A stretch of DNA of 64,000 bases from Aquirufa antheringensis. Lineage in GTDB: Bacteria; Bacteroidota; Bacteroidia; Cytophagales; Spirosomataceae. The notes under the pieces were generated by a model that worked only from the letters and a program-made list of their open reading frames with translations, had not been told where the DNA came from and did not search any database. The translations under genes were made by a program, and so were the position numbers. Numbering within the stretch: the stretch's first letter is position 1; every line of letters starts with the position of its first letter. Of the stretch, positions 9,369 through 62,717 are shown one piece after another. The stretch covers positions 128,935 through 192,934 of the forward strand of contig NZ_SEWZ01000002.1 of assembly GCF_004307425.1 (NCBI RefSeq), read 5' to 3'.

Positions 9369-9407
9369 CAAGGGGGTGGGTAAAAATATTTTGAGAATCA
9401 GGAGATT

Positions 9408-9439
9408 AGTCGCTAGTCACTAGTCGGGAGTCGACAGTG
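9408..9439. repeat. AGTC-family heptamer repeat (short)
   Basis: Four to five consecutive 7-bp units of the form AGTCGCT, AGTCACT, AGTCGGG, AGTCGAC. Same family as the larger arrays at 18872-19010, 19121-19204 and the in-gene array at 58858-58944. Confidence 0.75.
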
Positions 9440-9461: not shown

Positions 9462-9610
9462 AGAGCATAAAGAATAAAGCACAAAGCATAAAGGAGATAG
9501 TAGATTAGAGAGTATAGAGTAGAGATAGCGTTTACAGCATTTCATGAGACCCTAAAAACGCTTAGCGTTTTTAGCCAACTTTATTCTTTATGCTTTGTGC
9601 TCTATGCTTT
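9462..9610. repeat. Inverted pair of AAGCATA-type heptamer arrays
   Basis: The left arm (9462-9493) reads as 7-bp units such as AGCATAA, AGAATAA, AGCACAA. The right arm (9579-9610) is the same family on the other strand; the arms share a 16-nt reverse-complementary core. The roughly 85 nt between them belong to the first copy of the 209-bp duplication. A similar inverted pair lies at 56471-56502 and 56630-56664. Confidence 0.75.
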
Positions 9611-9928
9611 AAATCAACTAGAATAAAGATGGTAAATGGTGAATGGTGAATGGTGAATAGTAGATTATAAAATCCTCCGGACTTCGGACTCATTCCCTTC
9701 GGACTCCTTTAGAGTATAGAGTATAGAGTAGAGATAGCGTTTACAGCATTTCATGAGACCCTAAAAACGCTTAGCGTTTTTAACCAACTTTATTCTTTAT
9801 GCTTTGTGCTCTATGCTTTAAATCAACTAGAATAAAGATGGTAAATGGTGAATGGTGAATGGTGAATAGTAGATTATAAAATCCTCCGGACTTCGGACTC
9901 ATTCCCTTCGGACTCCTTTAGAGTATAG
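9511..9928. repeat. 209-bp tandem duplication
   Basis: Copy 1 (9511-9719) and copy 2 (9720-9928) are nearly identical; by eye the only clear difference is a G-to-A change after the hairpin (9574 versus its partner). Each copy contains a hairpin AAAAACGC-TTA-GCGTTTTT, a reversed AAGCATA array, a GGTGAAT heptamer run and a CTTCGG-rich segment. No gene is present. Near identity indicates a recent duplication. Confidence 0.9.
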
Positions 9929-9995
9929 ATTATAGAGTAGAGAGTATAGATGGTAAATAGTGAATGGTAAATGATCCTCGGACTCATTCCCTCCG

Positions 9996-10166
9996 GACCA
10001 AGCCGCAAAGCGGCGACTAAATCGCGCAGCGATGACTAAGCCGCAAAGCGGCGACTAAATCGCGCAGCGATGACTAAATCGCGCAGCGATGACCAAGCCG
10101 CAAAGCGATGACCAAACGACGCAGTCGTGACCAAGCCGCAAAGCGGCGACCAAACGACGCAGTCGT
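9996..10166. repeat. Hairpin-unit array A (nine 19-bp units)
   Basis: Nine exact 19-bp units, each GACYAA followed by a 13-nt mini-hairpin. Stems are of three types: GCCGC/GCGGC, ATCGC/GCGAT and ACGAC/GTCGT. Unit 6 (10091-10109) is a hybrid, with the left arm of the first type and the right arm of the second, so it cannot pair fully. A tenth, partial unit (GACTAAATT) leads straight into the Pho-type promoter of the next gene. Confidence 0.9.
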
Positions 10167-10175
10167 GACTAAATT

Positions 10176-10219
10176 TGACACTCCCATAACATACTTCCCC
10201 CCTGGCTTATCTACTTTAG
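10176..10219 (+). promoter_or_regulatory. Candidate Pho-box promoter of phosphoesterase A
   Basis: Half-sites TGACA (10176) and TAACA (10187) are 11 bp apart; 25 bp after the second begins TACTTTAG (10212), one mismatch from the -7 consensus TAnnTTTG. The ATG follows at 10240. The same spacing recurs at five other promoters of the window. Confidence 0.55.
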
Positions 10220-10239
10220 CAGAAACATTTCCTATACTT

Positions 10240-12915
10240 ATGAGAAAATACGGACTTCTACTTAGTTTATTATTCACCATCACTTCAGCTCAGGCGCAGC
10301 AGATTCTGGAAGTGCCAGGCATAAACGAATTTGCGAAGATTGATACCAATGGACATTCAGTGCTTCCAAGCGGACGTTATGTGACGCCGGCGGGAAAAAC
10401 GATTCGTATTACGGATGATCCGTTTGGGTTATCGATTAGTCCAGACAAGAAATGGGCGGTTACGATTCACAATGCGGCGTTTACGCGGGTGGATTTGATT
10501 AATCATACGTCGAAGCGTTTCCCGGATTTTGGAACATCTGATAAAGTTTCTCCATACGGAAAGAGTTCCTTTCTAGGTATTGTGTTTGCCTCAGATAGCC
10601 AAAGCTTTTACCTCAGCGGCGGGGATGCCGGAAATGTGCATCAAGTGGATATTTTAACGGGTAAGGTGATTAGAACCATTTCACTAGATGGGAAAATAGG
10701 CGAAAAGACCTTTAAAGATAGTTTTGCATCGGATATGGCGCTCATTTCCGAAAAAAACGAATTACTGGTGTTAGACCAGGCGAATTACCGAATTGTCCGC
10801 ATTGATTTAGGTACGGGAGGATTGAAATCGAGTACGGCGACGGGACGCTTGCCTTTTGGCATTACCTTAAGTCCAGATCATCAGTTTGCTTTCGTGGCGA
10901 ATGTGGGCATGTATGCGTATCCGATTGTGGAGGGAACGACGCCGGAAAATATTCAATCGCAGTATATTCCATACCATCCGTATGGAAATGATACGAAAGA
11001 ATCGCGGGAAGGGACCGTGATAAATGGTAAGAAAATTCCAGGCCTGGGCGATCCGAGAGCAGATGAGGCGATGAGTGTCTTTCAAATTAATCTTCAGACG
11101 AACCAAACGGAGAAAATATACAAACCTGGTTTTCAATTAGGTGAGATGGTAGAAGAAATGGAAGTTGTGGGTGGTTCTAGTCCAAATTCCATCGCGGTGG
11201 GTTCCCAATTTATTTATGTGAGTAATGCGACGAACGATAACATCGCGGTAATCGATTATAAATCCAAAAAAATCAAGACACACATTCCTATTCAGTTTTC
11301 TACTTTGTTAGATAAGCGCAGAGGGTATTTGCCGTTCGGTTTGACCTTAAGTAAAGATGAGAAAACCTTGTATGTGACGTTATTAGGATTAAATGCAGTT
11401 GCGGTGATCGATGTAAAATCGGCCATCACAAAAGGATTCATTCCTACGGGTTGGGGACCTACACGTGTGAAATTATCAGCGGACGAAAAGATGCTATATG
11501 TGACTTCATGTCGTGGGTATGGTGCAGGGCCTAATGGCGGTGCTGGATACAAGGCGCCTAAACAAGGAACCTACATAGGCGATGTACAATTAGGCACGTT
11601 CCAAGCGATTCCGATGCCTTCGGCGACAGGTTTAGCGGCTTTAACCACACAAGTTAAAAACAACACCTTTGTCGTAAAGGACGGATCGAAAAGAGGCAAT
11701 GCCACCTTCTCGATCGCGAAACCGGGTCAATCTCCCATCAAGCACATCGTTTACATTACGAAAGAGAACAGAACGTATGATGAGTTTTTTGGCCAGTTTA
11801 AAGGGGCGAATGGGGATTCGACGATTGCGCGTTTTGGACTTAATCGAACGGTTTATGAAAAAGGCAAAACCTTTAAAAATGTGGACGTTTCCCCTAATCA
11901 CCACCAAATCGCCAAGGCATTCTCGATGAGTGATAACTTCTACTGTGATTCAGATGCGTCCATTCATGGCCACCACTGGATGATGGGGGTGATTCCGAAC
12001 GAATGGGTGGAGACGAATTCGAGTGTTTCTAAATCCGCTAACTACTTCTCTGAAGCGCCAGGACGTCGTTTCCCAGGTTCAACGGGCAGTATGGATCCGG
12101 AGGATTATGCAGAGATTGGCGGGATTTGGGAGGCTTTAGAGCGCAAGAATATCCCGTTCTATAATTTTGGAGAAGCGAATGAGACTGGGCACGTGCGTGA
12201 ATCATGGTCAGATACGCTAACGGGGGCCGGTCACATCGTGATGGTGCCCATGCAAAAAGCTTTGTTTAAAAATACAAGTCATAATTATGCGGGTTTTAAC
12301 ACCAGCATTCCAGATCAATTCAGAGCAGAACAATTCGAAACAGAGTTCACCGAGAAGTGGCTGAGCGGCAAAGAAAAAATGCCCGCTTTGGTGACTATTC
12401 AGCTGCCGAATGACCACGGTGGGGATTTGGATTCTACAGCTGGATTCCCGTACCGCTCCTCTTTTATGGCCGATAATGATTTAGCGCTAGGCCGCATGTT
12501 ACAATTCTTATCGCATACGCCGTATTGGAAAAATATGCTGGTGATTGTTACGGAAGATGATCCGCAGGGAGGTGTCGATCACATCGATGCACACCGCAGT
12601 ATTTTGATGATGGCCGGACCGTATGTGAAAAGGGATTATGTGTCGCATCGCCACGCGAATTTTGGGTCGATTCTACGCGTGATTTATACGCTTTTAGGTA
12701 TTCCTGCGGTAAACCATTACGATCAAACGGCGAGCATATTAGATGATTTCTTTACAGAAACACCTAATTTCAAGCCCTATGAATTTAGCTTCCCGGATAA
12801 ACGGATCTTCGATGCGGACAAGACGATGATTCGCTACAATCGCACGATTGATTGGCGTAAAATCAAGAAGACCGTAGAGATGGATAATGAGGAGGACCAA
12901 AGAAAAAACCATTAA
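10240..12915 (+). CDS. YncE-type propeller / phosphoesterase fusion protein A
   Basis: An 891-residue exported protein. The start at 10240 gives a signal peptide (MRKYGLLLSLLFTITSAQAQ); the frame stays open upstream into the repeat array, which is spurious. About residues 25-480 form a YVTN/YncE-like beta-propeller with repeated 'T-L-Y-V-T' and 'PFGLTLS' strands. About 500-870 is an alkaline-phosphatase-superfamily phosphoesterase (PF04185 type), with the entry motif KENRTYDEFFG and the metal-ligand motif EDDPQGGVDHIDAHR near residue 770. It probably cleaves a phosphate mono- or diester in the periplasm; substrate unknown. It ends exactly where the convergent TonB receptor gene ends. A paralogue lies at 14895-17321. 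Confidence 0.85.
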   Translation: MRKYGLLLSLLFTITSAQAQQILEVPGINEFAKIDTNGHSVLPSGRYVTPAGKTIRITDDPFGLSISPDKKWAVTIHNAAFTRVDLINHTSKRFPDFGTSDKVSPYGKSSFLGIVFASDSQSFYLSGGDAGNVHQVDILTGKVIRTISLDGKIGEKTFKDSFASDMALISEKNELLVLDQANYRIVRIDLGTGGLKSSTATGRLPFGITLSPDHQFAFVANVGMYAYPIVEGTTPENIQSQYIPYHPYGNDTKESREGTVINGKKIPGLGDPRADEAMSVFQINLQTNQTEKIYKPGFQLGEMVEEMEVVGGSSPNSIAVGSQFIYVSNATNDNIAVIDYKSKKIKTHIPIQFSTLLDKRRGYLPFGLTLSKDEKTLYVTLLGLNAVAVIDVKSAITKGFIPTGWGPTRVKLSADEKMLYVTSCRGYGAGPNGGAGYKAPKQGTYIGDVQLGTFQAIPMPSATGLAALTTQVKNNTFVVKDGSKRGNATFSIAKPGQSPIKHIVYITKENRTYDEFFGQFKGANGDSTIARFGLNRTVYEKGKTFKNVDVSPNHHQIAKAFSMSDNFYCDSDASIHGHHWMMGVIPNEWVETNSSVSKSANYFSEAPGRRFPGSTGSMDPEDYAEIGGIWEALERKNIPFYNFGEANETGHVRESWSDTLTGAGHIVMVPMQKALFKNTSHNYAGFNTSIPDQFRAEQFETEFTEKWLSGKEKMPALVTIQLPNDHGGDLDSTAGFPYRSSFMADNDLALGRMLQFLSHTPYWKNMLVIVTEDDPQGGVDHIDAHRSILMMAGPYVKRDYVSHRHANFGSILRVIYTLLGIPAVNHYDQTASILDDFFTETPNFKPYEFSFPDKRIFDADKTMIRYNRTIDWRKIKKTVEMDNEEDQRKNH

Positions 12916-17409: not shown

Positions 17410-17686
17410 GTCGCCGCGTTGCGGCTTAGTCGTCAATGCGTGACTCAGTCGACTTCGTCTTAGTCATCGCTTCGCGATTTGGTCGCCTGCGGCCTAGTCG
17501 TCACTGCGTGACTTGGTCAAAAAGTCGTGACTAGATCGCGCCAGCGATGACCAAGCCGCAAAGCGGCGACTAAACGATGCAGTCGTGACTAGATCGCGCC
17601 AGCGATGACCAAGCCGCAAAGCGGCGACTAAACGACGCAGTCGTGACCAGATCGCGGCAGTGACGACTGAGTCACGCAGTGACGAC
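17410..17686. repeat. Hairpin-unit array B (head-to-head inverted)
   Basis: About twelve mini-hairpin units. The left half (to about 17515) is written as hairpin plus TTAGTC, the right half as GACTAA plus hairpin, so the two halves point at each other with only a few bases between. Unit lengths are 19 bp, with 15-bp forms (9-nt hairpins GACTTCGTC, GCCTGCGGC) and 20-bp forms (ATCGCGCCAGCGAT). Stem types include GCCGC/GCGGC, GTCAC/GTGAC, ATCGC/GCGAT and ACGAC/GTCGT. It ends 40 bp before the fba promoter. Confidence 0.9.
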
Positions 17687-17791: not shown

Positions 17792-18874
17792 ATGTCAAGT
17801 TTATCCAATCAAACAGGAGTGTTGCACGGAGATGCGGTTCAAGAGTTATTTGAAATCGCTAAGAAAAATCAATTCGCTTTACCAGCGGTTAACGTAACAG
17901 GTACAGATACGGTGAATGCCGTATTAGAAGCAGCGAAAGCGGTGAATTCTCCGGTAATCATCCAATTTTCTAACGGTGGCGGTATTTTCTACGCTGGAAA
18001 GACGCTTTCTAACGAGAATCAAGCAGCGGCAATCGCTGGTTCGATCTCTGGCGCTTACCACGTTCACCAAATGGCGAAAGCATACGGTGTTCAAGTAGTT
18101 TTACACACAGACCACTGTGCGAAAAAATTATTGCCTTGGATCGACGGTTTATTAGATGCGGGTGAGAAATTCTTCGCTGAGACAGGACAACCTTTGTTCT
18201 CTTCTCATATGATTGATTTGTCGGAAGAGCCTTTGGAAGAAAACTTAGAAATCTGCGCTAAATATTTAGAGCGTATGTCTAAAATGGGCATGACCTTAGA
18301 AATCGAATTAGGTGTTACAGGTGGCGAAGAAGATGGCGTGGATAACTCTGATGTAGATTCATCTAAATTATATACACAACCGGAAGAGGTGGCTTATGCT
18401 TATGAAGTATTGTCCAAAATCTCTCACCGTTTCACGATCGCTGCGGCATTCGGTAACGTACACGGAGTTTACAAGCCGGGTAACGTGAAGTTGCAACCAG
18501 TAATTTTGAAGAACTCACAAGAATTCATCAAAGAGAAGTATAGCTTAACAGCTGAGAAACCAATCAACTTCGTATTCCACGGTGGTTCTGGTTCATCTCG
18601 TGAGGAAATCCGTGAGGCATTATCTTATGGTGCGATCAAAATGAATATCGATACAGATACGCAATGGGCGTTCTGGGAAGGTATCTTAGGATTCTACAAA
18701 GCAAATGAGGCTTATTTACAAGGCCAAATCGGTAACCCAACAGGTGACGATTCTCCGAACAAGAAATACTATGACCCACGTGTTTGGTTACGTAAGGGCG
18801 AAGAGACTTTGGTAGCTCGTTTAAAAACAGCTTTCGAAGACTTGAACGCGACGAATGCGAATCAATATTTATAG
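17792..18874 (+). CDS. fbaA: Class II fructose-bisphosphate aldolase
   Basis: Zinc-dependent aldolase (360 aa, matching the E. coli class IIA length) that interconverts fructose 1,6-bisphosphate with dihydroxyacetone phosphate and glyceraldehyde 3-phosphate. Seen are the zinc motif HTDHCAKK (about residues 108-115), the family segment LEIELGVTGGEEDGVDNS, the NVHGVYKPGN motif and the phosphate loop FHGGSGS. MSSLSNQ at 17792 is the start; the upstream open frame runs into repeats. The stop TAG is itself the first three bases of an AGTC-heptamer repeat, so the array begins inside the stop codon. Confidence 0.96.
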   Translation: MSSLSNQTGVLHGDAVQELFEIAKKNQFALPAVNVTGTDTVNAVLEAAKAVNSPVIIQFSNGGGIFYAGKTLSNENQAAAIAGSISGAYHVHQMAKAYGVQVVLHTDHCAKKLLPWIDGLLDAGEKFFAETGQPLFSSHMIDLSEEPLEENLEICAKYLERMSKMGMTLEIELGVTGGEEDGVDNSDVDSSKLYTQPEEVAYAYEVLSKISHRFTIAAAFGNVHGVYKPGNVKLQPVILKNSQEFIKEKYSLTAEKPINFVFHGGSGSSREEIREALSYGAIKMNIDTDTQWAFWEGILGFYKANEAYLQGQIGNPTGDDSPNKKYYDPRVWLRKGEETLVARLKTAFEDLNATNANQYL

Positions 18875-19010
18875 TCGATAGTCAATAGTCAATAGTCGAT
18901 AGTCAATAGTGATAAGTCAATAGTCGATAGTCAATAGTCGATAGTGATAAGTCAATAGTCGATAGTGATAAGTCAATAGTCGATAGTCACTAGTCACTAG
19001 TCGCTAGTGA
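18872..19010. repeat. AGTCGAT-family heptamer array
   Basis: About 140 bp of 7-bp units AGTCGAT and AGTCAAT, with interspersed AGTGATA-AGTC forms that make a higher-order pattern, ending with AGTCACT and AGTCGCT variants. It starts inside the fba stop codon and precedes the fba terminator. Its reverse-complement partner is the CTACCGA array at 19121-19204. Confidence 0.9.
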
Positions 19011-54538: not shown

Positions 54539-56254
54539 ATGAATCTGAATATAGATGCAATTAAAGGCCAAACGTTTGACGCAATCGTCATCGGATCCGG
54601 TATCTCCGGAGGTTGGGCTGCAAAAGAATTAACAGAAAAAGGCTTAAAAGTAGCGGTTTTAGAGCGTGGTCGCGAGATCAAGCACATCGAAGGCTACGAA
54701 ACGGCGAATAAAAACCCGTGGGAATTCGATCACCGTGGTCGTCCTACGAATATGGCTGCTGAAGAGTATTGGGCAGGTATGCGTACAGGCTATACGGCAA
54801 ACGAAGAGCACCGCTACTTATTCGAAAACGATAAGCAAAACCCTTATTTAGAGAAAAGAGGCGGATTCGACTGGACTCGTGCTTACCACACAGGTGGTAA
54901 ATCGTTGTTATGGGGTCGCCAAACATACCGTTGGAACCGTGAGGATTTCTTAGCAAATGAAAAAGAAGGTGTAGGTACACCGTGGCCTATCGGCTATGAT
55001 GATTTAGCGCCTTGGTATTCATATGTAGAGAAATTTGCAGGTATTTCAGGGCAAGCTGAAGGCTTAGACGTATTACCGGATTCTGAATTCATGCCGGCGA
55101 TGCAGATGACTGCTCCAGAGACTCACTTTAAAAATGCAGTGAATAAGAAATTAGGTCGTGCCGTGACCGTAGGTCGCGTAGCGCACTTAACAAACCCAGG
55201 AAAACAACATACCGCTTTAGGACGTTCGTCTTGTAATTACCGTAACAAGTGTATGCGTGGTTGCCCGTATGGCGCGTATTTCTCCTCTTTATCAGCGACT
55301 TTACCTGCAGCGATGCGCACAGGTCGTTTAACGATGGTTCACAATGCGATTGCCGCTGAAATCATTTATGACGAAGCTACGCAGAAGGCCAAAGGTGTTC
55401 GCGTGATTGACCAAATCACGAACGAGTCGAAAGAATATTTCGCTAAAATCATCTTCGTGAACGCGGGTGCGATCCAGTCTACTTCGATCTTAATGAACTC
55501 GAAATCGAATCGTTACCAAAACGGTTTAGGAAACGACTCGGATCAATTAGGCCGTAACATCATGGACCACCACTTAGGGGTAGGTGCAAGTGCGACCGTG
55601 GAAGGTTTTGAGAAAGATTACATGTTCGGAAATCGTCCAAATGGTTTATACATTCCTCGTTTCCAAAACTGGGGCAAAGACAAGCGTGCTTATTCACGTG
55701 GTTTCGGATACCAAGGTGGCGCGAGCCGCGAGGGTTGGGGCCGTGGCGTGGGAGCGGATGGCTTTGGTGCAGATTTCAAAGAGAGCTTAACACACCCAGG
55801 ACAATGGACGGTTGGTTTTGGTGGTTTTGGAGAAATTCTTCCAAACCCAGAGAACCGTTTCGTTCTTAGTGCACAAAAAGATAAGTGGGGCTTACCAGTA
55901 TTGGAATTCTCTGCAGACTTTGGCCAAAACGAATTACAAATGCGCGAGGACATGATGAACGAGGCAGCGACTATGTTAGAGGCGGCTGGCTTCAAAAACA
56001 TCAACGCGTACAACAAGCAAGATACTCACATCGGCTTAGGTATTCACGAAATGGGTACGGCTCGTATGGGTACGTCTGTGAAGAACTCAATCGTTAACAA
56101 GCACAACCAAGTTCACGAGGTGAAAAACGTGTTCATGACGGATGGTGCGGCAATGGCTTCCGCTTCTTGTGTGAATCCTTCGTTAACGTACATGGCGATG
56201 ACAGCTCGTGCAGCTGACTTTGCGGTGAGCGAGTTGAAGAAGAGGAATTTGTAA
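54539..56254 (+). CDS. GMC-family oxidoreductase (gluconate dehydrogenase-like large subunit)
   Basis: FAD-dependent GMC enzyme of 571 aa. FAD motif IVIGSGISGGWAAKEL (about residues 16-31), substrate-site RGGFDWTRAYHTGGKSLLWGRQTYRW, the Cys cluster SSCNYRNKCMRGCPYGAYF (about 231-249), HEMGTARMG and the terminal VNPSLTYMAMTARAADF. No signal of its own; export on the partner's Tat leader is likely. The stop TAA is followed immediately by hairpin-unit array E. Confidence 0.92.
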   Translation: MNLNIDAIKGQTFDAIVIGSGISGGWAAKELTEKGLKVAVLERGREIKHIEGYETANKNPWEFDHRGRPTNMAAEEYWAGMRTGYTANEEHRYLFENDKQNPYLEKRGGFDWTRAYHTGGKSLLWGRQTYRWNREDFLANEKEGVGTPWPIGYDDLAPWYSYVEKFAGISGQAEGLDVLPDSEFMPAMQMTAPETHFKNAVNKKLGRAVTVGRVAHLTNPGKQHTALGRSSCNYRNKCMRGCPYGAYFSSLSATLPAAMRTGRLTMVHNAIAAEIIYDEATQKAKGVRVIDQITNESKEYFAKIIFVNAGAIQSTSILMNSKSNRYQNGLGNDSDQLGRNIMDHHLGVGASATVEGFEKDYMFGNRPNGLYIPRFQNWGKDKRAYSRGFGYQGGASREGWGRGVGADGFGADFKESLTHPGQWTVGFGGFGEILPNPENRFVLSAQKDKWGLPVLEFSADFGQNELQMREDMMNEAATMLEAAGFKNINAYNKQDTHIGLGIHEMGTARMGTSVKNSIVNKHNQVHEVKNVFMTDGAAMASASCVNPSLTYMAMTARAADFAVSELKKRNL

Positions 56255-56306
56255 GCGACGAAGTCGCTGGTCGGCGCGAAGCGCCTTAGTCGCCTGCGGC
56301 TTAGTC
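56255..56306. repeat. Hairpin-unit array E
   Basis: Three units in the TTAGTC orientation starting at the base after the GMC stop codon: stems GCGAC/GTCGC, GGCGC/GCGCC and the short GCC/GGC (GCCTGCGGC). It lies between the stop codon and the terminator at 56325. Confidence 0.85.
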
Positions 56307-57783: not shown

Positions 57784-59313
57784 TTAGTTTTTGATTAGGT
57801 TAACGACGTCTTTTTTCGTGACTTTGCCCATCGCGTTGCGAGGTAATTCAGGCAAACGGTAGTACGCCCGAGGGGTTTTATACGCGGGCATTTGTTCGCG
57901 CATCCAGGCATTTAAGGCTTTCGTGTCGAAATCATCTTGGCAGACAATGGCGGCGCTTACGAGTTCGCCCCATTCGTCATTTTCGACGCCCACGACGCAG
58001 CAATCCTCGATTCCGGGGTAGGTGCGGAGAACTTCTTCGATTTCCAAAGCGGAAATTTTATAGCCTCCAGATTTAATGATGTCGACGGAGTTTCGGCCCA
58101 AAATCCGGTAGCCTCCCAGCTCGTCCATCGTCGCGATGTCCCCAGTTTTGAAGAAACCATCCTTGGTAAATGACTCCGCGGTGGACTCTGGTTTTTGCCA
58201 GTATTCATTGAAGACGTTTGGCCCTTTGACCTGAATCTCCCCTATCTCTGTACCCGGAATGACGTTATCTTGTTCATCCGCTAATCGCACTTGAACGCCC
58301 GGAAGTGGATATCCCACGTGACCCGGCACACGAGGGCCATCGTAGGGATTACTCAAGGCCATCCCGATTTCGGTCATCCCATAACGCTCCAAAAGGCTAT
58401 GTTCACTAATCGTCTTCCAGCGCTCCATCACGGAAACCGGTAACGCGGCAGAACCCGAGATCATGAGTCTGAATTTGGACATAATGTGGGTCATCTCTTT
58501 TTGGTCCACCTCAGACAACGATTCCCAATGCGTAATCAACTTATAATAGATGGTCGGAACGGCCATAAAGACGTTCAACTGACCTTTTTTAAAGATATCA
58601 AACAGCGCTTCCGCCGAAAAACTAGGCAAAAACTGGCAAGTCGCCCCCGCCCAAAGCGAGCAAGAAACGATATTAATCACCCCGTGAATGTGGTGCAGCG
58701 GCAAAATACAGATCGAATAATCCGCCGAAGTCCAACGCCAAGCATCGATCAAAGTCGAAATTTGCGCATTCAAATTCGCGTGAGTGGACACCACACCTTT
58801 GGGCAAATTCGTCGTACCAGAGGTGTAGAGCATCATGGCGCGGCGGGAAGCAGAAACAGTCGGGAGTCGATAGTCGAGAGTCGCTAGTCGAGAGTCGATG
58901 GTCGTCAATTGGGAGTCGCTAGTCGCTAGTCGAGAGTCACTAGTCGTCAGTAGACGTAATCCTAGCTCTTCGCATAATGGTTTGAGTAATTCTTCGAATT
59001 CCGGGGAAACGACCACGATGCTCGAGCCAGAATTCTCAATCGTATAGCGCAAAGAGGGCAACGGGTAGGTCAAACAAAGCGGAACGGCCACGCCGCCAGC
59101 ACGCCAAATCCCCCACTGCACCCGCACATAATCAAAACCAGGGTTCACCATGTAGGCGACTCGGGCTTCATTTAGGTCTGTATTTTTATCTAATAAGGTC
59201 GAAGCGAAGGCTTTCGAGGCGTCTAAAAGCTGTGAATAAGTATAATTTGTACCATCCGAAATTATGGCGGTCTTCTCCAGGTGCTTTTCAGCTTGGGCAA
59301 AAATGGATATCAT
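57784..59313 (-). CDS. Acyl-CoA ligase, probably malonyl-CoA synthetase, with in-frame repeat insert
   Basis: AMP-forming ligase of 509 aa with P-loop LYTSGTTNLPKG (about residues 162-173), RYGMTEIGMALSNPY, and the C-terminal GRNSVDIIKSGGYKISALEIEEVL with the catalytic region PRNAMGKVTKK. The Mad genes downstream imply malonate as substrate (MatB-like), giving malonyl-CoA, ADP-free. Residues 124-152, just before the P-loop, are a seven-residue repeat (TSDSRLA, TSDSQLT, TIDSRLA, TLDYRLP) encoded by the 7-bp AGTC-family satellite; MatB homologues have an ordinary short linker here. No malonyl-CoA decarboxylase gene is nearby. Confidence 0.85.
   Translation of the reverse strand: MISIFAQAEKHLEKTAIISDGTNYTYSQLLDASKAFASTLLDKNTDLNEARVAYMVNPGFDYVRVQWGIWRAGGVAVPLCLTYPLPSLRYTIENSGSSIVVVSPEFEELLKPLCEELGLRLLTTSDSRLATSDSQLTTIDSRLATLDYRLPTVSASRRAMMLYTSGTTNLPKGVVSTHANLNAQISTLIDAWRWTSADYSICILPLHHIHGVINIVSCSLWAGATCQFLPSFSAEALFDIFKKGQLNVFMAVPTIYYKLITHWESLSEVDQKEMTHIMSKFRLMISGSAALPVSVMERWKTISEHSLLERYGMTEIGMALSNPYDGPRVPGHVGYPLPGVQVRLADEQDNVIPGTEIGEIQVKGPNVFNEYWQKPESTAESFTKDGFFKTGDIATMDELGGYRILGRNSVDIIKSGGYKISALEIEEVLRTYPGIEDCCVVGVENDEWGELVSAAIVCQDDFDTKALNAWMREQMPAYKTPRAYYRLPELPRNAMGKVTKKDVVNLIKN
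58858..58944. repeat. AGTC heptamer satellite inside the acyl-CoA ligase gene
   Basis: About twelve units of the form AGTCGAT, AGTCGCT, AGTCGAG and AGTCACT inside the coding sequence. Three 7-bp units equal 21 nt, so the protein repeats every seven residues and the reading frame is kept. Same family as 18872-19010. Confidence 0.92.
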
Positions 59314-61710: not shown

Positions 61711-61843
61711 GCTGCTCCGCAGCTAAGTCGCCTGCGGCTTAGTCACGACTTTGTCGTTTAGTCGCTGCTTCGCAGCCTAGTCAAAAAGTCGCTGCTTCGC
61801 AGCTTAGTCGACTTCGTCTTAGTCATCGCTTCGCGATTTAGTC
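61711..61843. repeat. Hairpin-unit array F
   Basis: Seven units, all in the TTAGTC orientation: stems GCTGC/GCAGC (three times), GCC/GGC, ACGAC/GTCGT, GAC/GTC (GACTTCGTC) and ATCGC/GCGAT. It starts 2 nt after the pdhA stop and ends 7 nt before its terminator, so it is transcribed as the pdhA 3' UTR. Confidence 0.9.
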
Positions 61844-61850
61844 ATTAAGT

Positions 61851-61885
61851 AAAAGCTCATTCGCAAAGTCGGATGAGCTTTTTTG
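61851..61885 (+). terminator. pdhA terminator
   Basis: Stem AAAAGCTCATTCG / CGGATGAGCTTTT (13 bp with one G-U pair) with loop CAAAGT, followed by TTTTG. Confidence 0.85.
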
Positions 61886-62065
61886 TTGCTTTTCAATTAG
61901 TTGATAAAATGGGATGGGAGATATAATCAATTGAAAAATTAATGAGTACCTTTAACGAAGGTTTAATAGTATTAAAACCCCATCTCATGAAAAAAGACAT
62001 CATTTTAGGCTAGGCCTACCAGAATTTTAAATGAACGAGCTTGTGGAAACGCAGGCTTTTTTTAC
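61886..62065 (+). other. Unassigned transcript-like segment with 23-codon ORF and terminator
   Basis: A short frame MSTFNEGLIVLKPHLMKK... (61942-62013, 23 codons) is followed 25 nt later by an intrinsic terminator at 62038-62063 (AGCTTGTG / CGCAGGCT with a GAAA tetraloop, then a T-run). A terminator without a full gene suggests a small RNA, a leader peptide or a decayed gene. No promoter was recognised. Confidence 0.35.
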
Positions 62066-62167
62066 GTCGCTTCGCGACAGTCGTCCTACGGACTAAGTCA
62101 GGACTGCGTCAGTCACTGCTTCGCAGCTTAGTCGACTCCGTCTTAGTCATCGCTTCGCGATTTAGTC
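62066..62167. repeat. Hairpin-unit array G
   Basis: About six units in the TTAGTC orientation with degenerate lengths: GTCGCTTCGCGAC, GTCCTACGGAC, GACTGCGTC, ACTGCTTCGCAGC, GACTCCGTC and ATCGCTTCGCGAT. Its last bases supply the stop codon of the minus-strand four-helix-bundle gene. With array H it forms an inverted pair around that gene. Confidence 0.85.
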
Positions 62168-62534
62168 AATTCAATCGATGGCCGCTTTTATCAAGAATTC
62201 GAATGAAACCTTTAATCAGTAGAGAAATTTCAACCAGATCTTTTTGCAATTGATTAGCCTGTTCATGTGTTATATAGTTTAACTGGCAAGCAATATAAAG
62301 CATCGATTTTACCTCACTAGATGACCCTAATGCAATAAACAAAAAGCGTCGAAAATCCGCATCTGAACCTCTTTCAAAACCCTCCGCTATATTATTAGAA
62401 ATGGAGATTGCAGCCCGCTGGATTTGGTTTTTAAATCCGTAATCTACATTTAACTGAAGTACTTTATAAATCTCAATTGCGACGATTTGAGACTTTTTCC
62501 AAGCCTCAATTTCTTCAAAATGGTATATTCTCAT
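62166..62534 (-). CDS. Four-helix-bundle protein (23S rRNA intervening-sequence type)
   Basis: Protein of 122 aa: FEEIEAWKKSQIVAIEIYK, then GFKNQIQRAAISISNNIAEGFERGSDADFRRFLFIALGSSSEVKSML, the consensus of the S23/IVP four-helix-bundle family (TIGR02436). Members occur inside 23S rRNA intervening sequences and, as Avd, in diversity-generating retroelements; many Bacteroidota genomes carry stand-alone copies of unknown role. Here the gene lies between two hairpin-unit arrays in inverted orientation, and its stop TGA comes from array G. No reverse transcriptase or rRNA gene is near. Confidence 0.9.
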   Translation of the reverse strand: MRIYHFEEIEAWKKSQIVAIEIYKVLQLNVDYGFKNQIQRAAISISNNIAEGFERGSDADFRRFLFIALGSSSEVKSMLYIACQLNYITHEQANQLQKDLVEISLLIKGFIRILDKSGHRLN

Positions 62535-62589
62535 AATTCATCAAGATTACACGATTTTTAATTATTATTGTAACAGCAACTTGATAAAC

Positions 62590-62717
62590 GACTAAATCGC
62601 GCAGCGATGACCAAACGACGCAGTCGTGACTAAATCGCGCAGCGATGACCAAACGACGCAGTCGTGACTAAATCGCGCAGCGATGACCCTTTGACTAAGC
62701 TGCGAAGCAGCGACTAA
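62590..62717. repeat. Hairpin-unit array H
   Basis: Units in the GACTAA orientation: five exact 19-bp units alternating ATCGC/GCGAT and ACGAC/GTCGT stems, an 8-nt interruption, one GCTGC/GCAGC unit (62693-62711) and a final GACTAA. It ends 2 nt before the pxpA ATG. Confidence 0.92.

Follow-up and report, generated by a model that had tools for sequence, protein, structure and literature searches.

Tandem arrays of a constant spacer and a covarying minihairpin in a freshwater Cytophagales genome and its close relatives

Several described repeats and mutation processes come close to the short tandem palindromes reported here. REP families have stems of 5-13 bp where the tag is GTAG and of 8-9 bp where it is CGTC, and CGTC families without an associated transposase are described (PMC3733652). 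Hairpin elements are described from mitochondrial DNA, among them those of sponges (PMC2800124) and the double-hairpin elements of Allomyces (cited there and in PMC7218506). Template switching is described as homogenising the arms of inverted repeats (PMC8604942, PMC6357072). Extraordinary stability is described for DNA minihairpins of the c(GNA)g type, which have a GNA or GNNA loop and two or more G-C pairs, and a Tm of 78 C is given for the GCGAAGC minihairpin (PMC4686876). Heptamer direct repeats of the sequence TAACTGA are described in Beggiatoaceae, Cyanobacteria and Bacteroidetes (PMC4679880). Among the matches listed in the literature, no genomic repeat family built on the c(GNA)g motif was named, and their titles and opening abstracts held no description of a family that joins a spacer to a minihairpin, which is not proof of absence.

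The window analysed here is a stretch of 64,000 nucleotides (contig C2, positions 128935-192934) of the genome G000, which comprises 2.50 Mb in 11 contigs and is 99.55% complete. Its main array lies on the + strand at 9996-10166 and consists of nine tandem 19-bp units, each made of a GACYAA spacer and a minihairpin with arms of five and a loop of three nucleotides (5-3-5); the stems are GCCGC, ATCGC and ACGAC and the loops AAA and GCA. The initial annotation had described tandem 19-bp units and taken each of them to be palindromic. The units are present as described and eight are perfect palindromes, while the exception (10091-10109, +) is a chimera that combines the arms GCCGC and GCGAT of two unit types and leaves two positions unpaired. 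Seven stems had also been listed for the array, and only the three named above occur in it. GTCAC (17500), GCTGC (61791 and 62693) and GGCGC (56273) are found elsewhere in the window, and a spacer-based scan of the window found no GCGAC stem, yet GCGACGAAGTCG follows the stop codon at 56252-56254. Having three stems only, the main array taken alone could be copies of three seeds. Just to its left, a 209-bp sequence is present in tandem duplicate (9501-9943, 98% matches) and is itself composed of several heptamer types. A mechanical ORF (10108-12915) begins within the array; translation more likely begins at the ATG at 10240, which is followed by a stretch that by eye resembles a signal peptide.

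Units of the same kind recur in the window. A divergent locus at 17413-17683 has six units on the - strand in its left half (17413-17518), 15-bp units among them, and seven on the + strand in its right half (17529-17683), the two being separated by a 10-bp core, AAAAAGTCGT. A two-unit array on the - strand (56273-56306) is situated 18 bp from the stop codon of a + strand gene that ends at 56254. In the divergent locus at 61730-62711, eight units on the - strand (61730-62167) and six on the + strand (62590-62711) flank a core of 422 bp, and the right half contains a 38-bp higher-order repeat of ATCGC and ACGAC units. Perfect 5-3-5 palindromes number 130 in the window, compared to about 62 expected with equal bases.

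Unit structure was examined in 508 units with a GAC[TC][AG][AG] spacer from five genomes, sampled where the spaced pattern matched (G000, G007, eight stretches of G008, G013 and four regions of G021). The palindrome is 13 nucleotides long in 353 units, 11 in 63, 9 in 80 and of other lengths in 12. A 3-nt loop on a stem of 5 bp (343 units), 4 bp (61) or 3 bp (80) accounts for 484 of the 508, and 15-bp (3-3-3) and 17-bp (4-3-4) units are mixed with 19-bp units in the same arrays. The spacer reads GACTAA in 220 and GACCAA in 21 of 241 units, giving AGTC on the opposite strand. Each genome has 12-17 kinds of stem, the same ones recurring, and ATCGC is the commonest in four of the five. Hairpin-free linkers of 8 bp (GACTCTTT, GACCCATT) occur within arrays and at their inner ends at several loci, L075 and L118 for example.

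The loops are GNA in 372 of the 484 units with a 3-nt loop and of the reverse type, TNC, in 15, and the closing pair is C-G in 480. GNA is found on 76 of the 80 3-bp stems and 58 of the 61 4-bp stems (about 95%) and on 238 of the 343 5-bp stems (69%), so that the preference is highest on short stems, as expected if these need the most stable DNA loop. We know of no equivalent RNA rule for GNA triloops on very short stems. By its loop make-up the folding strand looks like DNA rather than RNA and, as the GNA loops sit on the GACTAA strand, this is the strand that would fold. The DNA energy parameters used here assign one energy to all 64 loops and do not model the GNA bonus. Loop class was rejected as a predictor of stem damage, stems being imperfect in 24 of 244 GNA and 15 of 112 non-GNA 5-bp words (23 of 58 and 15 of 61, respectively, when distinct words are counted).

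The double-spacer pattern GACYAA-N13-GACYAA has 73 matches in G000, compared to two for a reversed-pattern control. The 72 matches that were fetched comprise 67 perfect 5-3-5 palindromes, three with one mismatch and two with two; the 73rd, on contig C4, shows no palindrome by eye. Without a palindrome requirement, the five genomes gave 356 words, which reduce to 119 distinct 13-mers. Among these, each stem pair is Watson-Crick in 88-92% of words, whereas shuffling the 3' arm gave a mean of 50% (sd 1.8) and a maximum of 56% over 1000 shuffles. The top six column pairs by APC-corrected MI are the five stem pairs plus loop positions 1 and 3. In 196 distinct 25-mers, pairing was 0.941 in register, compared to 0.078-0.494 when the 3' partner was slid by 1-3 columns. 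Single mismatches in distinct words (12 G-T/T-G, nine A-C/C-A and six others) show no clear G-U excess.

Comparison between species extends this to orthologous positions. Clusters with both flanks shared between species gave 67 pairings, from 59 clusters, so array positions are conserved while the units turn over, and unit number and content vary between species at one orthologous place. In 198 aligned orthologous unit pairs from ten species pairs, which like the 67 pairings are not independent events, both-arm changes are seen in 88 of the 911 stem pairs and one-arm changes in 35, compared to 12.2 of the former expected under arm independence. Clean single-pair swaps between orthologues include ATTGC/ATCGC, GTCCC/GCCCC and GAC/GCC. 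Between G000 and G007 the both-arm and one-arm changes are nearly equal (10 and 11), and both-arm changes predominate in all nine remaining species pairs (12/8 to 7/1 and 5/0), a pattern which suggests that mutation occurs first and compensation or loss follows. At L075, L118 and L124 the stem takes in the last base of the array-adjoining gene's stop codon. The codon is TAG with C in the far arm in G008 and G007, whereas G013 has TAA with T, which amounts to a compensated change of the stop codon.

Strong covariation over the 119 distinct words, together with the compensated swaps at orthologous positions, bears out the proposal of the initial annotation that the two arms change together. Independent variation of the arms is not seen, nor are the units copies of one fixed sequence. 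Sequence data from the five genomes also support the suggestion that the folded strand is a target of selection or copying. These comparisons give good support to a structural constraint on the hairpins, and the loop rule supports its DNA nature; what is passed on seems to be the shape of the repeat more than its sequence. Mere slippage of a small number of fixed seeds with random mutation, already thought unlikely in the initial annotation, would be in keeping with the higher-order repeats in arrays and with the three stems at 9996-10166, but it is refuted by the arm covariation across distinct words and orthologous positions and we regard it as barely credible.

Arrays were found in ten of 37 genomes of the genus (G000, G002, G007, G008, G013, G015, G021, G023, G027 and G030), with at least 13 double-spacer matches each, and no more than four matches were found in any of the other 27 genus genomes or of 22 genomes from other families; seven of the ten array-bearing genomes are drafts (73-90% complete), and many genus genomes are incomplete drafts. 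In a collection of one genome per species (84,980 species) the two-unit pattern occurs in 73 stretches. Of these, 71 come from records whose titles read Cytophagaceae bacterium or Spirosoma fluviale MAG; the other two, from the unrelated Acetatifactor and Desulfamplus MAGs, were discounted as about chance, roughly two being expected for 19 fixed letters with equal bases. The MAG titled Spirosoma fluviale (CAMDSI01, about 2 Mb, 85% complete) falls in the same genus and its title may be a mislabel. By record titles, the host range of the family is a freshwater Cytophagales (Bacteroidota) genome and its close relatives. A DNA tree built from ribosomal-protein genes, which covered 22 of the 37 genus genomes plus two others but not the array-bearing G002, G008, G027 and G030, placed the remaining six array-bearing genomes in one clade with 100/100 support. 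In G007, a single contig of 2,505,188 bp, all 63 matches fall between 0.16 and 1.45 Mb or at 2.48 Mb, which leaves a stretch of about 1 Mb (1.45-2.48 Mb) free of pattern matches; dnaA matches at 449. A viral origin was rejected, as IMG/VR holds no match to the two-unit pattern and the array had no phage or plasmid match.

Within loci, 54 recurrences of identical adjacent two-unit blocks were counted, compared to about 3 expected; between loci there were 16, compared to about 13. The excess within loci indicates that arrays grow by local tandem duplication, and block transfer between loci is not seen above chance. HUH single-strand transposases recognise a hairpin together with a constant flank. 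The unit has just this form and might be a relic or non-autonomous product of such an enzyme (RAYT/IS200 or IS91-like) copying hairpin units, and REP families with 5-bp stems, as well as families without a linked transposase, are described (PMC3733652). No RAYT partner of the sort raised in the initial annotation was found, however: PF01797 (Y1_Tnp) has no match in the ten array-bearing genomes, which include one assembled as a single contig, although it matches 12 of the 27 array-free genus members, five of them strongly. PF04986 (Y2_Tnp, IS91-type) is missing from all 37 genus genomes and from 14 control genomes, though the model does find 12 places in two further genomes of the order, and reverse transcriptase (RVT_1) matches none of seven of the ten array-bearing genomes, G000 included, being present in G007, G013 and G021. 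With block sharing between loci at chance level as well, an HUH origin appears very improbable.

The nuclease search, made with the models for SbcD (TIGR00619) and XseA (TIGR00237), matched none of the 37 genus genomes; the two models are above cut-off in 11 and 10, respectively, of 22 other members of the order. The array-free genus members are also without SbcD and XseA matches, so this loss does not explain why only some genomes have arrays.

The orientation of units is strict. Among 87 clusters, 30 have units on the - strand followed by units on the + strand, 29 have - units only, 28 have + units only, and none has the order + then -. All 30 mixed clusters diverge from the middle of the intergenic region. 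A terminator-like core was considered as a general seed of this orientation and rejected, since an A-rich sequence with GTC stands on the left in only 9 of 30 cores and GAC with a T-rich sequence on the right in 9 of 30. Genes taken from simple longest-ORF calls flank 82 of the 87 clusters (five with a missing neighbour were dropped) and are convergent in 39 and divergent in six. The control gaps came from twelve 20-kb array-free stretches of G007, which were placed after the hit list so as to avoid known hits, so that their zero units are no independent test and they serve as a baseline only; of the 202 gaps, 36 are convergent, 34 divergent and 132 tandem, and among the 34 gaps of at least 100 bp, four are convergent and 14 divergent.

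Array-gene junctions (n=112) fall at gene 3' ends in 78 cases and at called 5' ends, with the same geometry, in 34. The stop codon is TAG at 46 of the 78 array-adjoining gene ends, compared to 44 of 190 control genes, and TAGTC is found at 26 of the 78, compared to one of 190; this excess indicates that the spacer, read as TTAGTC, often supplies the stop codon. Hairpins acting in transcripts, as 3'-UTR structures or in termination or mRNA stability, would account for the frequent contact of arrays with gene 3' ends and for the TAGTC stop, and some cores between arrays resemble intrinsic terminators. An RNA-level role nevertheless appears quite unlikely. GNA triloops on 3-bp stems follow the DNA rule, G-T/T-G mismatches (12) are not clearly in excess of A-C/C-A (nine), and the 34 junctions at called 5' ends do not fit. 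There was no Rfam match at gathering score within the window and, by eye, no T-run follows each hairpin, although some inter-array cores have them.

Selection on folded DNA would keep stems, loop, spacer and orientation alike, and a host element of this kind would be recognised by a protein that reads GACTAA beside the folded minihairpin, in a REP/BIME-like role at chromosome boundaries, in supercoil absorption or in conflicts between convergent genes. The constant spacer, the GNA strand bias and the fixed divergent orientation are in its favour, as are the array positions common to species while units turn over (67 pairings) and the enrichment of convergent neighbours (39 of 82 clusters compared to 36 of 202 control gaps). 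We nevertheless consider a host-selected element rather unlikely. A few enzyme families were searched and yielded no candidate protein, 27 of the 37 genus genomes have no arrays, and species differ in how many units, and which, they have at a shared position. The confinement of matches in G007 (to 0.16-1.45 Mb and 2.48 Mb) argues against a general genome organiser, and avoidance of 5' gene ends is also predicted by neutral tolerance.

The reading that we prefer, tentatively and at slightly under an even chance, is that of a clade-specific, locally duplicating DNA-minihairpin satellite, which is kept palindromic by hairpin-templated repair and needs no host function. A unit would fold on its GACTAA strand when this is single-stranded, during replication or through supercoil-driven extrusion, and arrays would lengthen and shorten through tandem duplication, within a locus, of one to several units. 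When one arm changes, fold-back template switching (quasipalindrome correction) would copy the change into its partner arm, and a genus without detectable SbcD or XseA may provide the setting for this. Units no longer able to fold would decay, and arrays would occupy non-coding space up to the stop codon. Four elements of this scheme are inferred, namely that units fold in the cell, that template switching does the compensating, that there is no host function, and any role of the missing nucleases. A broader version is possible but more speculative: the satellite may replicate its shape, with the single-stranded minihairpin fold of the units serving for both their amplification and their repair and no transposase involved, and with fold and spacer inherited while the stem sequence drifts.

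The both-arm changes at orthologous positions fit arm rewriting of quasipalindrome sites, and selection would give the same pattern. We lean, with modest confidence, towards template switching, which would require no host function and fits the local growth of arrays and the missing nucleases, over selection through a DNA-binding protein. A purely mutational process does not account for the constant spacer, for the presence of GNA loops on one strand (372 GNA compared to 15 TNC) or for strict divergence (30 of 30). The recurrence of the same stems also counts against template switching, as there are fewer kinds than free compensatory drift would yield. Template switching should invert loops as well, so the rarity of inversions, found in one of 94 loop-differing pairs with arms shorter than those for which inversion is reported, is a further point against it.

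The other side of the main array's intergenic region carries AGTC heptamers (TAGTCGC, TAGTCAC, TAGTCGG and GAGTCGA) on the + strand at 9407-9434 (C2:138342-138366 corresponds to 9408-9432). They read TAGTC toward the middle and have the divergent layout of the hairpin arrays. Further AGTC heptamer arrays are located at 18871-19008 and 58858-58946. A four-copy heptamer pattern has 220 matches in G000, compared to none for its control; among other hairpin-rich genomes G021 has no match and G007 and G008 have one each. Heptamers are also present in seven hairpin-free genus members (G003, G006, G011, G012, G022, G031 and G035) and in G038, which belongs to another family. The main array lies beside the L3 gene, and at this place the distance from the L3 start to the next start codon is 528-540 bp in ten array-free genomes, where we take the following gene to be fba-like, and 744-1000 bp in five heptamer-carrying relatives. 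In the array clade this place measures 807 bp in G013, with seven units, and 861 bp in G007, with heptamers and no unit; it holds eight units in G000, five in G023 and four in G015, which have a different neighbouring gene there. The L3 intergenic region (L228, L229, L230, L236) has CAGTAGT in G007, CAGTAGG in G021 and TAGTCGC in G013 and G012. By eye, it is as if the heptamer array had been replaced at this place with the 7-bp period kept.

If the preferred reading is true, the arrays provide a natural genome-wide record, hundreds of units and over twenty stems in scale, of selection or templated repair on folded chromosomal single-stranded DNA. As several close species have orthologous arrays, the shares of template switching and selection are directly measurable. 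The family would tie the c(GNA)g DNA minihairpin, a biophysical oddity, to a real repeat family, and it points to an effect of SbcCD and exonuclease VII loss that can be tested.

Compared to described systems, the units resemble REP/BIME palindromes and their RAYT enzymes in being short intergenic palindromes with a conserved tag beside the stem and complementary variation among members. They differ in having GACTAA/TTAGTC in place of GTAG or CGTC, stems of 3-5 bp, a loop nearly fixed at 3 nt and mostly GNA, tandem arrays with one spacer, a strictly divergent layout and no Y1 transposase match. The family therefore fails two defining REP/RAYT features, the tag and the transposase. Mitochondrial hairpin elements are likewise intergenic, sometimes tandem and in some cases marked by complementary substitutions, but they belong to organelle DNA, several have conserved stems and variable loops, the reverse of the units here, and the descriptions drawn on here mention no constant spacer or GNA rule.

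Quasipalindrome template switching (the Ripley model; PMC8604942, PMC6357072) would keep arms complementary without a host function, but as described it is a mutation process at single sites and not a repeat family, and it leaves spacer, loop rule and orientation unexplained. Minihairpins of the d(GCGAAGC) type (Hirao and colleagues; PMC4686876) share the c(GNA)g loop, recognised here from sequence only, and are described as oligonucleotides and parts of aptamers, whereas here the motif is a genomic repeat. Heptamer direct repeats (PMC4679880) are similarly intergenic, tandem and found in Bacteroidota, and the AGTC heptamers have a TAGTC core and sometimes occupy the same intergenic regions as the hairpin units. 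Heptamers have no palindrome, however, and can be dissociated from hairpin units across the genus genomes, and the hairpin units do not have the 7-bp non-palindromic period. REP/BIME palindromes, mitochondrial hairpin elements, quasipalindrome mutation and heptamer repeats are the nearest described kinds.
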